Positions 25,874 to 31,304 of a DNA stretch of 64,000 nucleotides are shown piece by piece; the first letter of the stretch is position 1, and each line of letters opens with the position of its first letter. The position numbers and the translations under genes are program-made. Origin of the DNA: Selenomonadaceae bacterium (GTDB lineage Bacteria > Bacillota > Negativicutes > Selenomonadales > Selenomonadaceae); NCBI GenBank assembly GCA_017477125.1, contig JAFUXN010000076.1, positions 1 through 64,000 on the forward strand, given 5' to 3'. Under the pieces are notes generated by a model that saw only the letters and a list, made by a program, of their open reading frames with translations, made no database searches and was not told where the DNA came from.

Positions 25874-28800
25874 TCAATCTTTGATCATCTTCTCGAGTGT
25901 CTCAAATAATATTTCGGGCTCAACCGGCTTGGTCAAATGCGCGTTCAGCCCCGCTTGCAACGATCTCTGAACATCTTCGTCGAAGGCGTTCGCCGTCAAC
26001 GCGATGATCGGGATCGTCTTCGCGTCGGGTCGATCGAGCGCGCGGATCGCTTGCGTCGCTTGTAAACCGTCCATCTCCGGCATCCGTATGTCCATCAGGA
26101 TCGCCGAGTAATATCCCACGTCCGACCGCTTGAACATGTCCACCGCAATCTTGCCGTTCACCGCATGCTCCGCTTCGACCTCCCTCATGCTCAACACCAT
26201 CATCATGATCTCCGCGTTAACCTGCATGTCCTCCGCCAACAATATTTTCCGCCCTTCGAGCTCCGCCTTCTTCTCCTCGACCGGTTGAGTCGCTTTCTTC
26301 TTCTTGAGCGCCGAACGGAATTCATCAATGAGATTGCTCGTGAACAGCGGCTTGGCGATGAAACTGTCGACGCCCGCCGCCTTCGCCTGCTCCTCTATCT
26401 CGTCCCAATTGTACGCCGTCAAAATTATTATCGCCGATTCGTCGCCGAGGATCGATCTGATCTGCCGCGTAACTTCCAGACCATCCATTTCGGGCATCTG
26501 CCAATCGACCACGATCAGATTGTACGGGTCGCGACGGGCATGACGCGTCTTCGCCATCTCAACCGCCTCTCGCCCCGACATCACATAATCAGATGCAATG
26601 CCCGCCGTCGACAGCACCAATTTGGCATGCTCGCAAGCGATAGGATCGTCGTCGATCACCAGCACGTTCAAATCTTGCGGACGCACTTCAATGTCGTCGG
26701 CAGTTGCGTCGGTCTTGTCGGAATCAATCAGCGTGACCGCGACGGTGAAGGTGGTGCCCTTGCCCTTCTCGCTCTCGACATCGATCCTGCCGTTCATCAT
26801 CTCGACGATGCTCTTGGTAATCGCCATGCCCAAGCCCGAACTGCCGTACCGATTGGTTGTGCCGCTGTCCTCTTGGCTGAACGTGTCGAAGATGTGCGGG
26901 AGGAAGTCCTTGCCGATGCCGATGCCGCTGTCCTTGATGGTGAACTTGAGCGTGGACTTGCCGTCGAAGTTCGCGGTTCTCTCGATGAGGAAATCGATGT
27001 TGCCGCCCTCGGGCGTGAACTTCACCGCGTTGCTCAAAATGTTGATGAGCACTTGACGGAGCTTGACGCTGTCGCCGATGTAATAATCATCGACGTGCCC
27101 GTTGATGCGACAGTCGTAATTAAGATGTTTATCGTGGCATTGACTGCTGAACAGAATGTTGATCTGCTCGATGAGTTTGGAGAAGGAGAACTCCTCGCTC
27201 TTTATGATCATGCGCCCGCTCTCGATGCGGCTCATGTCGAGTATGTCATTGATCAACGACAGCAGATGTTGAGCGGAGGCGCCGATCTTCTCAAGATAAT
27301 CTTTGGTCGTCTCGGACAGGTCGGGCTCGTGGAGCGCAAGACTGTCGAGCCCGATGATGGCGTTCATCGGCGTCCTTATCTCATGTGAAACCGAGGAAAG
27401 GAACGCCGTCTTGGCGCGGCTCGCCTCCTCTGCGGCTTTGAGTGCGTCACCGAGCGCCCGATTCTTCGCCATGGAGTCTCGCATTTCGGAATCGATGATG
27501 GTAAAGCCGACGCCGACCGCATGAATCATATGGTCAACGCGATCTTCGACATGACGGACGCCCGCCATTCGAAGCATCTCGTAAATCTCTTTGCCGTTGC
27601 GGACGGTCAAATATCGATAGGAAATGATCCTTTCGCACTCGAGTCCCGCGCGGATCGTTGACGGCTTTATAAATTTCAAGAAGTCCTCCCGATAATCCTC
27701 GGCAACGTAATTGTGAGCGTACTCGGTGAAGAGTTCTTTGAACGACGCGTGCGCGCCCTCGTCGATCGTATCTTCCGCCTTGGAATCCTTCCGATAACAG
27801 ATGCAGTCATCGTTGTCGAGATTGACATAATAGACGCTGCGATAATCCGACGCAAGCGCGGTGATCATGCTGTCCTGTTGAGTACGCTGCTGCTCTTGAG
27901 CCATCAATTCTTCCTGAAGTGCCAGCTGTTCTTCGAGCTCCTGTTGTTTGACGCGATTTTCGGTTTCACTGACTTGCTTATCGAGCGTCATCTTGGCAGT
28001 GCGACGGGTCTGAATGATCACGACGGCGAACATCGCCAGCAACACGAGCACGGTCAAGATCGATTGGATCAGACTGCGGAAGACGATGCCCTCTGTGATG
28101 TCGCTGATCAACGACGTGATGATGCTTTCGCGGATCAGATAAGTGAGCATCCAATCGGTTCCGTGGATCGGGACGTAGCACATGGTCTCTCGAACATTCT
28201 CGTAGGTGAACGACGCGATGCCGCGCTTGCCGTTGGCGAAGTCGTCTCGCATCTTCTCGATGTTGTACTCTTCTTCGAAGGAGGCATTTTCGAGCGCGTT
28301 GAACAAACTTCTTTCGTTGGAGAGCCCGCCGAGCACGACGTTGGCGAGCGAAATTCCGTCGGAGGTATAGATGTTGCAAAACGTGGTGTTTGAGTTGTTG
28401 GTTGTCAATGAGGCGCTCGACAGCAGATGATCCATGTCGATCTCCATGAAGCACGCGACGAAAGTTTTGCCCATGAATGTAAAGCTGTCGACGGGCACGG
28501 CGATGACGATCTTCTTGTCCTTGCCGTTGACGTTCTTGATTGATATCTCCGTCTCGAAAATATTTTTGTAGTCGAAATGATAGCGATCGATGTCGTTTCG
28601 GGTGCCGCGGGATGTGTAGATCAAACCGTCGGAGTCGACGAACGCCAATCGGTTGAGCGCGTAGAGTTGTTTCATTCGAGCCAAGTAGGCTTGTAACTTC
28701 TCGATGCTGCTCAAGTCGTCGGGAACCAACAAGCCGATCACGATGTTCATATTGTTGACGTAATCGTCGAGAGTGGAGGCGACGACCTGTTCGCGGCGTT

Positions 28801-28966
28801 CGGCGAGCTCGTCGAGGTATAGGAGGCTGACGGTGCGAACTGCCTGCTCGGTATCGTCGCTGACGTTTGAGCCCGTGAGCATGGTGCCGCCGACGAGAAT
28901 GACGACCAGGGCGATGGTGCCGATGATGATCTCTCGCATAAAATTAGAGTTGGGTTTTGATTCCAT
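25874..28966 (-). CDS. Hybrid sensor histidine kinase with two receiver domains
   Basis: ATG 28966 follows GGGAGG; the two upstream residues groups to 28984 are not needed. 1030 residues. Order: TM helix near 11-30, an extracytoplasmic cache-like sensor to about 290, TM helix near 300-325, a coiled coil, a PAS-like region, HisKA with SHEIRTPMN (His near 527), HATPase (NAVKFTPEGG, DSGIGIG, GSSGLGMAI), and two receivers with Asp in VVDWQMPEMDG (near 822) and LMDIRMPEMDG (near 958). There is no Hpt domain in view. It autophosphorylates in response to an unknown signal. A promoter lies at 29001-29029. Confidence 0.9.
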   Translation of the reverse strand: MESKPNSNFMREIIIGTIALVVILVGGTMLTGSNVSDDTEQAVRTVSLLYLDELAERREQVVASTLDDYVNNMNIVIGLLVPDDLSSIEKLQAYLARMKQLYALNRLAFVDSDGLIYTSRGTRNDIDRYHFDYKNIFETEISIKNVNGKDKKIVIAVPVDSFTFMGKTFVACFMEIDMDHLLSSASLTTNNSNTTFCNIYTSDGISLANVVLGGLSNERSLFNALENASFEEEYNIEKMRDDFANGKRGIASFTYENVRETMCYVPIHGTDWMLTYLIRESIITSLISDITEGIVFRSLIQSILTVLVLLAMFAVVIIQTRRTAKMTLDKQVSETENRVKQQELEEQLALQEELMAQEQQRTQQDSMITALASDYRSVYYVNLDNDDCICYRKDSKAEDTIDEGAHASFKELFTEYAHNYVAEDYREDFLKFIKPSTIRAGLECERIISYRYLTVRNGKEIYEMLRMAGVRHVEDRVDHMIHAVGVGFTIIDSEMRDSMAKNRALGDALKAAEEASRAKTAFLSSVSHEIRTPMNAIIGLDSLALHEPDLSETTKDYLEKIGASAQHLLSLINDILDMSRIESGRMIIKSEEFSFSKLIEQINILFSSQCHDKHLNYDCRINGHVDDYYIGDSVKLRQVLINILSNAVKFTPEGGNIDFLIERTANFDGKSTLKFTIKDSGIGIGKDFLPHIFDTFSQEDSGTTNRYGSSGLGMAITKSIVEMMNGRIDVESEKGKGTTFTVAVTLIDSDKTDATADDIEVRPQDLNVLVIDDDPIACEHAKLVLSTAGIASDYVMSGREAVEMAKTRHARRDPYNLIVVDWQMPEMDGLEVTRQIRSILGDESAIIILTAYNWDEIEEQAKAAGVDSFIAKPLFTSNLIDEFRSALKKKKATQPVEEKKAELEGRKILLAEDMQVNAEIMMMVLSMREVEAEHAVNGKIAVDMFKRSDVGYYSAILMDIRMPEMDGLQATQAIRALDRPDAKTIPIIALTANAFDEDVQRSLQAGLNAHLTKPVEPEILFETLEKMIKD

Positions 28967-29000
28967 GATGATCGCCTCCCGCAATCGATTTACTCATGAG

Positions 29001-29075: not shown

Positions 29076-29357
29076 TCAGCCCTCCAAAGTTAAAATTTCT
29101 TTCCACTGCAGCTCGCGGATCATGTCGACGAAATCATTTTCGAGCATAACTTCATCTACCTCGTACTTCTGCAGAAATTTATTTTTTATGTCCTCGACGG
29201 TCGCCTTGCCGTCAACAGAGTTGAGAAAAAATGCCGCCGTCGAATTGAAGTAGTAGATCGTCAACGAGTTTGCGCAGACGATCAGGATATCGTCATTTTG
29301 CCGCATCTTGACGACGGAGCGATGCGGGATTTTATTTTTAAGCCATTGAAACACCAT
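29076..29357 (-). CDS. PqqD-like RiPP recognition protein
   Basis: ATG 29357 lies 6 nt after GGAGGTG, inside the end of the precursor gene. 93 residues. The PqqD pattern is clear: beta segment LIVCANSLTIYYFNSTAAFFLN, then the winged helix (SVDGKATVEDIKNKFLQKYEV, MLENDFVDMIRELQWKEIL). Such proteins bind the leader peptide and present it to the radical SAM enzyme. It is the last gene of the operon. Confidence 0.8.
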   Translation of the reverse strand: MVFQWLKNKIPHRSVVKMRQNDDILIVCANSLTIYYFNSTAAFFLNSVDGKATVEDIKNKFLQKYEVDEVMLENDFVDMIRELQWKEILTLEG

Positions 29358-29646
29358 CGTCGGCACCTCCGCGCTTCACGAGACTCGGCAATCTGAATGC
29401 GGGCATAGCCGCGACCGATTTTTTGACTGAGCGTCCGATCGCATAGCCCGCCGCCAATTGAACGCCCTCCGTTGCCGCCACAGCCGATGCTGCGCCCGTC
29501 GCTGCCGCCGCTCCCGCCGCGAGTGCTCCACCGGCAGCCGCGCCCGCCGACATCACTGCCGCCCCGATTGCCGCCAATGGAAAAATGCCGTGCGCCTCCA
29601 AAATATCAGCGCCGACCACTGTCGGACGCAGATATACTTCTTTCAA
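29338..29646 (-). CDS. Precursor-like peptide 2 of the rSAM locus
   Basis: TTG 29646 follows GGAGTG; 102 residues. The N-terminus KEVYLRPTVVGADILEAHG and IFPLAAIGAAV are shared in pattern with peptide 1. A long Ala/Gly-rich middle (about 30-75, membrane-like) follows, then the second shared motif PAFRLPSL and a short polar end. A leader with a Y-x-R-P motif, a repetitive core and a PqqD plus radical SAM neighbourhood suggest a modified peptide. There is no double-Gly cleavage site that I can single out. It overlaps the PqqD gene by 20 nt. Confidence 0.6.
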   Translation of the reverse strand: MKEVYLRPTVVGADILEAHGIFPLAAIGAAVMSAGAAAGGALAAGAAAATGAASAVAATEGVQLAAGYAIGRSVKKSVAAMPAFRLPSLVKRGGADDGVSMA

Positions 29647-29667
29647 TGCAATCACTCCGATCAAATT

Positions 29668-29931
29668 TTAGTCATCGCCCGAAAAATTTTTGAAGCTCGG
29701 CAACCTGAAAGTTGGAAACGCTTTGCTTTTGGAACTGCTTGCCGCCGCGAGCCCCAAACCTGCGGCGACACCTACTTTGAATGCTGTGGTCGATGCTGCG
29801 GCTGCGGCTGCCGAGCCTACTCCCGCTGCCGCTGATGCCACTGCCGCTCCGATTGCCGCCAACGGGAAAATCCCTTGGAACTCTAAAACTGCGCTGTCAA
29901 TCACTGACGGACGCAAATATGCTTCCTTCAA
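29668..29931 (-). CDS. Precursor-like peptide 1 of the rSAM locus
   Basis: TTG 29931 lies after TTGGAGGTGAG, in the same sequence context as peptide 2 (ATTGAAGGAAGC versus ATTGAAAGAAGT). 87 residues. Shared: KEAYLRPSV near the start, IFPLAAIGAAV near residue 20, an Ala/Gly/Ser core, and PTFRLPSF near the end. The two peptides keep both ends while the core varies, as in precursor families. It starts 16 nt after the radical SAM stop. Confidence 0.6.
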   Translation of the reverse strand: MKEAYLRPSVIDSAVLEFQGIFPLAAIGAAVASAAAGVGSAAAAAASTTAFKVGVAAGLGLAAASSSKSKAFPTFRLPSFKNFSGDD

Positions 29932-29947
29932 TCCGCTCACCTCCAAT

Positions 29948-30988
29948 CTACAACGCAATATCAACGTCGACGTGATTTTTGATGTCGCTCGTCTGCGTCA
30001 CGTCGTCGATGCTCATCACATAATCTTTGACCGCCTGCGAGTTCCAAGCATCGATCCCCTTCGCGAGCCACATATCTTTGATCGATTGATTGATCACGTT
30101 GCCGATCGTAAACGGCGCCATGCAATCGAGCCGAAAATCGCCGTTCGGACGAATGATCCCGCCGCCGTTGACTTCGCTCATATATCGCTCCATCTGAAAT
30201 TTTAATTCCGCCGACCGTTGCAGGATGATCTTGCCCGCATATTTTTTACTGAGCTCCTCGATCAATCCGTACAAAACATTTTTCTGCTCGTCGTCGAGAA
30301 CGATATCAGTGTTTTCGTAAGCGCGCCCGCTGTACATCACTTCGCCGAGAATGATCGAATTGGCGCCGAGCCGATAGGCAAGATTGATCATGTCTTCAAC
30401 CTGCGAAAGATTTTCGGGCGTGACGGTATGCGCGATGACGAGCGGGATTCCGGCATTACTGATCTCGAGCGCGCCGTTGACCGCCCGATCGAACGAGCCG
30501 TTGACGCCGCGAAATTTGTCATGAACTTCGGCGGTCGCTCCGTCGATCGAAATTTGGAACCAAAAGTAGCGATATTTTATGAAGCGGCGCACCTTATCAG
30601 GCGTGAGAAGCAAAGCGTTGGTGATCACGACAAAGGACGTGCCGTCGTCGTGTAAAATGTCCATGATGTCGAATAGCCGATTGCCGAGCAGAAGCGGCTC
30701 ACCACCGGAGATGATGCATTGAAAAATCCCGCCGTCAGCAACAATCTGATGAGCGAGATCAATCCATTTGTCGGGCGTCATGGGCGTGATGCGATCGGCG
30801 TCGCCCGAACGATTGTAGCAATGCTTGCAAGCGAGATTGCATTGACCGGTAAGCTCAAACTGCAAAGTGATCGGGTAATTGAATTGCCTCGGATAAATGC
30901 CCGCTCCCTGCAATGCGGCGAGATTATTCTTGAGGGACTTAAGATTGCGCTCGTCGAGCGTTCGGTACTTCTTCAAATAATTTTTCAA
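29948..30988 (-). CDS. Radical SAM enzyme of a RiPP-like locus
   Basis: TTG 30988 with AAGGAG upstream. 346 residues. The [4Fe-4S]-SAM motif is Cys 50, 54 and 57 (CNLACKHC), with SGGEPLL near 97 for SAM binding. The C-terminal part has the SPASM-like IIRPNGDFRLDCMAPFTIGN but only one Cys, so auxiliary clusters may be missing or incomplete. It likely forms a radical-based cross-link or other modification on the adjacent peptides. It overlaps the upstream YkgJ-like gene by 50 nt. Confidence 0.85.
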   Translation of the reverse strand: MKNYLKKYRTLDERNLKSLKNNLAALQGAGIYPRQFNYPITLQFELTGQCNLACKHCYNRSGDADRITPMTPDKWIDLAHQIVADGGIFQCIISGGEPLLLGNRLFDIMDILHDDGTSFVVITNALLLTPDKVRRFIKYRYFWFQISIDGATAEVHDKFRGVNGSFDRAVNGALEISNAGIPLVIAHTVTPENLSQVEDMINLAYRLGANSIILGEVMYSGRAYENTDIVLDDEQKNVLYGLIEELSKKYAGKIILQRSAELKFQMERYMSEVNGGGIIRPNGDFRLDCMAPFTIGNVINQSIKDMWLAKGIDAWNSQAVKDYVMSIDDVTQTSDIKNHVDVDIAL

Positions 30989-31253
30989 GCTCTCGTCTCC
31001 TTATGTCGTCGCAAAGGACGGCAATCATTTTATGAAACTCCTCGACCGGCATATGGGCGTAACCGTTTTCGTAGACGTAGCGACCGTTACACATATCGGG
31101 GCGATGCTTGTATATGTCGCACAGATTTTTTTCGGTCAGATGTCGGCAGACTCCGTCGCCACGATCCAGATACCGCAGTTCATCGATCGCGCGGATGTTT
31201 CGACAGCATGCTCCGCATCGTCGACAAGGATAAGAAAAATATTTTTTCGAGCC
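30939..31253 (-). CDS. YkgJ-like Cys-cluster protein, start unresolved
   Basis: The frame is open from 31253 to TAA 30941-30939. It contains CRRCGACC, then GDGVCRHL, NLCDIYKHRPDMC and VLCDDI, the YkgJ cysteine set (probably metal-binding). No ATG, GTG or TTG precedes the cluster. The frame that begins at GTG in AAAGGAGTG ends up one base off after a run of six A (31243-31248 region). Removing one A would give MIRLEKYFSYPCRRCGACC. So there is either a real or artefactual frameshift, or a slippage site. It is a close relative in pattern of 51250-51519. Confidence 0.55.
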   Translation of the reverse strand, partial: GSKKYFSYPCRRCGACCRNIRAIDELRYLDRGDGVCRHLTEKNLCDIYKHRPDMCNGRYVYENGYAHMPVEEFHKMIAVLCDDIRRRELEKLFEEVPNARRAQS

Positions 31254-31273
31254 TTATCACTCCTTTCATGTAC

Positions 31274-31304
31274 ATTATATCACGGGGGGGGGTTAGGCTG
31301 TCAA
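31274..31304 (-). promoter_or_regulatory. Promoter with C9 tract in the spacer, likely phase-variable
   Basis: TTGACA (31304-31299) and TATAAT (31279-31274) are separated by 19 bp: GCCTAA, nine C, GTGA. The nine-residue run is the longest G/C homopolymer I find in the window. Loss of two residues would bring the spacer to 17. It drives the RiPP-like operon. Confidence 0.65.

Follow-up and report, generated by a model that had tools for sequence, protein, structure and literature searches.

Tracts of G or C in Campylobacter and Helicobacter act mostly by shifting a reading frame. In Neisseria, homopolymers lie between the -35 and -10 hexamers of porA (poly-G) and fetA (poly-C), and the length of the homopolymer sets transcription (PMC2791445, PMC5320596, PMC7864442). 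Poly-G runs in the promoters of the tpr genes of Treponema pallidum modulate the transcription of genes encoding surface proteins (PMC7864442). The contingency genes of Campylobacter and Helicobacter have long G/C tracts beside or within genes of surface glycans and restriction (PMC6321876, PMC2823697).

The 64,000-nucleotide stretch of a Selenomonadaceae genome analysed here (the window) carries a promoter that resembles those of porA and fetA in having a homopolymer, nine C, between -35 and -10. Unlike the Neisseria cases, it has many counterparts, in a rumen genus represented chiefly by assemblies from metagenomes; moreover, the base of the tract differs here between orthologs, and the spacers of G-tract promoters are 19 bp, versus about 17 bp in porA and fetA. 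The likeness to tpr lies in poly-G runs within promoters that precede genes for surface proteins. In tprL, however, the run lies across the -10 region and leaves the spacing of the hexamers unchanged, whereas length changes in the spacer tracts described here would alter it. The window's genome, like those of Campylobacter and Helicobacter, has G/C tracts near surface-glycan and restriction genes, but the nine C of the window would act on transcription rather than on a reading frame. None of the papers covered by the literature search gave an account of phase variation in Selenomonadaceae. The familiar examples of phase variation through homopolymeric spacers are a few promoters of host-adapted pathogens; here this form of control appears to be common in a genus of rumen commensals.

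The promoter and its operon

The minus strand of the window, from 31304 to 31274, reads TTGACA-GCCTAACCCCCCCCCGTGA-TATAAT, and both sigma70-type hexamers are perfect. The initial annotation, made from the sequence alone, had described this element as TTGACA and TATAAT separated by 19 bp containing nine C, the longest G/C run in the window. The description is exact: in the plus-strand reading the tract is G9 (31284-31292), and the next-longest runs of G or C in the 64 kb do not exceed six. Promoters of the porA/fetA type have a homopolymer of about eight or more nucleotides between a recognizable -35 and -10, as is found here.

By itself, C9 is only mildly unusual for 64 kb and constitutes weak evidence, because shuffled windows occasionally yield C8 matches (at least two in 11 of 100 dinucleotide shuffles). 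Since long runs are not very rare by chance in a sequence of this length, the case rests on position and comparison. The placement of C9 within a spacer flanked by perfect hexamers is, unlike the run alone, not weak evidence. Among the matches listed (100 of 132), the window's genome has about 38 runs of at least eight G/C, two of which fall within perfect TTGACA/TATAAT spacers, and the probability of at least two such placements by chance, estimated from these counts of runs among the matches listed, is about 3e-5. One might still appeal to the occasional C8 runs in shuffled windows, and to the 154-contig draft state of the assembly, to argue that the tract is a chance run or an assembly error in a single draft genome. 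That argument is scarcely credible in view of the homopolymers that occupy the same spacer in independent rumen assemblies and the genus-wide excess over control patterns (both described below). Chance was rejected on the strength of the pattern controls and the recurrence of homopolymers in orthologs.

The operon downstream of the promoter (Table 1) keeps the gene order CxxCxxCC, radical SAM, PqqD in all 14 of the related operons fetched, one of them from Anaerovibrio lipolyticus, and similarity to the candidate peptides was detected in 8-9 of the 14. A maturase, a PqqD-like chaperone, and a small candidate precursor peptide, conserved together, are what we took to mark a radical-SAM RiPP operon, and all three are found here. 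The label "RiPP-like" given in the initial annotation is thus fair, with radical SAM and PqqD in every related operon and peptide similarity in most; none of the named NCBIfam maturase families fits the radical-SAM protein, all matches lying far below the curated cut-offs. Because the hybrid sensor kinase-like frame found no match in the 14 related loci, its membership in the operon is uncertain.

No start codon lies in frame with the CxxCxxCC sequence, and the nearest start is offset from it by one base. Several relatives have the gene intact, with an initial ATG. Judging from the sequence, the operon's first gene looks damaged in the window's genome. The offset sits at a run of six A within 31238-31263 (minus strand); it could represent a second variable site, reflect damage to the gene, or result from misassembly. 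Adjoining the operon are genes resembling those of a phage tail (21665-25900; a sheath-like protein and the frames that follow it), which, judged by eye, may constitute a prophage or a tailocin-like island.

Table 1. Promoter elements and genes of the operon (positions in the window), with promoters of orthologous operons
Feature	Position	Strand	Basis or remark
-35 hexamer TTGACA	31299..31304	-	sequence
Spacer, 19 bp, GCCTAA-C9-GTGA	31280..31298	-	sequence
C9 homopolymer tract, proposed slippage site	31284..31292	-	sequence; C/G/T homopolymers in same spacer of orthologs
-10 hexamer TATAAT	31274..31279	-	sequence
AAAGGAG, ribosome-binding-site-like	31260..31266	-	sequence
CxxCxxCC (PF03692, YkgJ-like) open frame	30939..31238	-	profile match and sequence
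Radical-SAM peptide-maturase-like protein	29948..30988	-	Pfam PF04055 3.8e-26; PqqE/GeoRSP-like below cut-offs
Candidate precursor peptide 1, small, Ala/Gly-rich (KEAYLRPSV...GIFPLAAIGAA)	29668..29964	-	sequence
Candidate precursor peptide 2, small, Ala/Gly-rich, N-terminal motif common with peptide 1	29338..29664	-	
PqqD-like peptide chaperone	29076..29366	-	PF05402 1.1e-9; present in 14/14 related operons
Hybrid sensor kinase-like ORF, downstream	25874..28984	-	operon membership uncertain
Promoter of ortholog L098: TTGACAATGGGGCATT-G10-ATAAT			
Promoter of ortholog L101: TTGACAAAGGGACGTT-G10-ATAAT			
Promoter of ortholog L102: TTGACAAAGCGGCAT-G7-TAAT			
Promoter of ortholog L099: TTGACACGCCG-T12-ATAAT			
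Promoter of ortholog L104: TTGACAAACCCG-T13-AATA			

Recurrence of the tract in orthologous operons and across the genus

This spacer holds C9, G10, G10, G7, T12, or T13 in the orthologous operons of six species, including that of the window, so that the window promoter differs from its orthologs in the base of the tract as well as in its length. Because C, G, and T replace one another between orthologous spacers, the homopolymer itself has evidently been retained by evolution; the swaps constitute evolutionary evidence that it is the homopolymer that is kept. Within the region examined, no spacer tract was found in nine of the 15 orthologous operons. A gene encoding an XRE-type regulator, read from sequence, apparently lies directly upstream of the operon in four of the tract-less loci (L094, L096, L097, and L107).

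A second promoter in the window's genome, TTGACATGCTAA-C10-GTGCTATAAT (contig C38), precedes a gene encoding an exported protein, and its orthologs carry C13 (69% identity) and G9 (48%). Elsewhere, three orthologous RTX-type genes (L161, L221, and L227) are preceded by near-identical promoter flanks enclosing G9, G12, and G9, respectively, and further groups with near-identical flanks carry G10/G11, C8/C9, or T10-T14, the tract differing by one to four bases. In these comparisons, made between species representatives with one genome per species, a given promoter has tracts of unequal length in related genomes of different species (C10/C13; G9/G12; C8/C9).

Sixty genomes of the rumen Selenomonadaceae genus were surveyed for the pattern TTGAC..G7+..TAAT and its C- and T-tract equivalents, with the reversed pattern as control. 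About 100 G-tract sites were found, distributed over 39 of the 60 genomes (control: 3). The C-tract pattern gave 14 sites and the T-tract pattern 85, versus control counts of 1 and 0, respectively. Outside the genus such promoters are rare: about 197 Negativicutes genomes gave 10 G-tract sites versus 4 control matches, in an output that includes a few members of the genus. The C9 locus is a homopolymer-spacer promoter, as initially annotated, but it is not special, being one of many in the genus. When aligned, the tract promoters of the genus share an A/T-rich stretch upstream and a C preceding TTGACA. Loss of mismatch repair was rejected as a cause of the tracts, as mutS1 is intact in the genus.

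The T-tract promoters form a separate class, TTGACA-NNCCG-T10-14-ATAAT (L261-L280 among its members), many with a conserved GCTT after the -10. Promoters with A tracts, TTGACA-An-CAATTAC/T-TATAAT, recur with A runs of differing length and the rest the same (e.g., G017:C1:85600 and G065:C58:7751) and are a possible further class subject to slippage.

Spacer length

The initial annotation took spacers of 17 bp to be best. Ordinary TTGACA/TATAAT promoters, taken from two genomes of the genus, do peak at 17 bp (28 of 57), but G-tract promoters typically have spacers of 19 bp (32 of 69 distinct promoters, with 7% at 17). The difference between the two gives a Mann-Whitney p of about 2e-7, a value that overstates independence owing to the shared ancestry of the genomes. 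The spacers of T-tract promoters are mostly 14-16 bp (p about 1e-6, overstated for the same reason). The length of the G tract is negatively correlated with that of the rest of the spacer (r about -0.49), as is partly expected from how the tract is cut out.

The window promoter, at 19 bp, sits in the typical state of a G/C-tract promoter. Since 19 bp is typical for G-tract promoters, the equation of the ON state with 17 bp is unproven: either it is a low state that most of the assembled genomes happen to show, or the optimum itself is displaced by the tract. In E. coli, expression remains high across spacers of 15 to 19 bp (PMC8695583). Because these data suggest that spacers of 15-19 bp can all be active, tuning and on/off switching are equally likely, and changes of one base at 19 bp may tune expression rather than switch it.

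A peak at 19 bp is also what brings to mind promoters of the MerR type, where a regulator binds a dyad in the over-long spacer and twists it so that the two hexamers come into register; if so, the homopolymer would be incidental. Spacers of 19-20 bp are described for MerR-family promoters (PMC8113463, PMC11049809). By inspection, however, the homopolymer lies to one side of the spacer and has no counterpart on the other, and dyad symmetry centred in the spacer was found neither in GCCTAACCCCCCCCCGTGA nor in the aligned promoters of the genus, on which ground a MerR-type spacer was rejected. The peak of T-tract promoters at 14-16 bp and the diversity of downstream genes, among which no common regulator gene was seen, also speak against regulation of this sort, which we consider very improbable.

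The dependence of spacer length on the base of the tract (19 bp for G, 14-16 for T, 17 for ordinary promoters) and the correlation given above, partly expected though it is, might reflect a structural role for the tract, in which the stiffness of G/C or T DNA sets geometry and basal strength; the tract would then be kept for constitutive strength, not for switching. This is unlikely, given that C, G, and T tracts substitute for one another at orthologous promoters, that near-identical flanks carry unequal lengths, that the gene content suits contingency loci, and that similar G/C tracts lie inside coding genes of the window's genome.

Genes behind the tracts and the proposed mechanism

The first proteins encoded downstream of tract promoters (n = 75) include 23 with RTX calcium-binding repeats, 8 radical-SAM proteins, and 5 AAA ATPases, besides one instance each of flagellin, C-type lectin, glycosyltransferase, and clostripain. 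T-tract promoters precede genes of varied small and exported proteins, one of which has, by eye, a GG-type bacteriocin-like leader. To judge from these similarities, such genes are typical targets of phase variation. Within the class, the RTX proteins (23 of 75), the flagellin, the lectin, and others may act at the cell surface or in interactions; the window promoter precedes a peptide-maturation operon.

The reading of the locus as a phase-variable promoter, first put forward in the initial annotation, is supported by the recurrence of the homopolymer with change of base, the differences in length between near-identical flanks, the over-representation in the genus, and the kinds of genes downstream. 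The best reading, and a probable one, is that C9 forms the slippery element within a sigma70-type promoter, phase-variable in the manner of porA and fetA, that serves the operon of CxxCxxCC, radical-SAM, peptide, and PqqD genes. Slippage during replication would cause the tract to gain or lose one or more bases, the change in length would alter the distance between -35 and -10, and the altered distance would lead to heritable, reversible differences between cells in the expression of the operon. We infer slippage within populations, an effect of length on transcription, and a benefit from bet-hedging. In the genus, many proteins that are secreted or lie at the surface can probably drift up and down at random in their expression, and the promoter class predicts that individual cells of rumen Selenomonadaceae differ in their surface proteins and peptide products. 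Perhaps, though we offer this only tentatively, the spacers define a genus-wide phase-variable regulon: selection would maintain a slippage-prone run whatever its base, and that base would set the usual spacer length (19 bp for G, 14-16 for T) as the helix geometry of the tract shifts the optimum off 17 bp.

Besides its two promoter tracts, the window's genome has, among the matches listed, at least about 36 poly-G/C runs, mostly 9-11 in length. Open frames flanking these runs (again among the matches listed) include genes for glycosyltransferase, LicD, FkbM methyltransferase, WbqC, and MmeI-type restriction. At several of the runs, long open frames that differ in reading frame flank the tract on either side, an arrangement usual for contingency loci. 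One region of the genome (L066; G000:C14:1-17000) has nine poly-G/C runs of 9-11 within about 15 kb, with two near-identical copies 1.1 kb apart; it may be a dense contingency cluster. Two contigs (C39 and C47; L071 and L077) terminate in a poly-G/C run, which is what one would expect had variants of differing length interrupted the assembly. The gene for an MmeI-type (type IIL) restriction-modification enzyme adjoins a poly-G/C run and is a candidate phasevarion.
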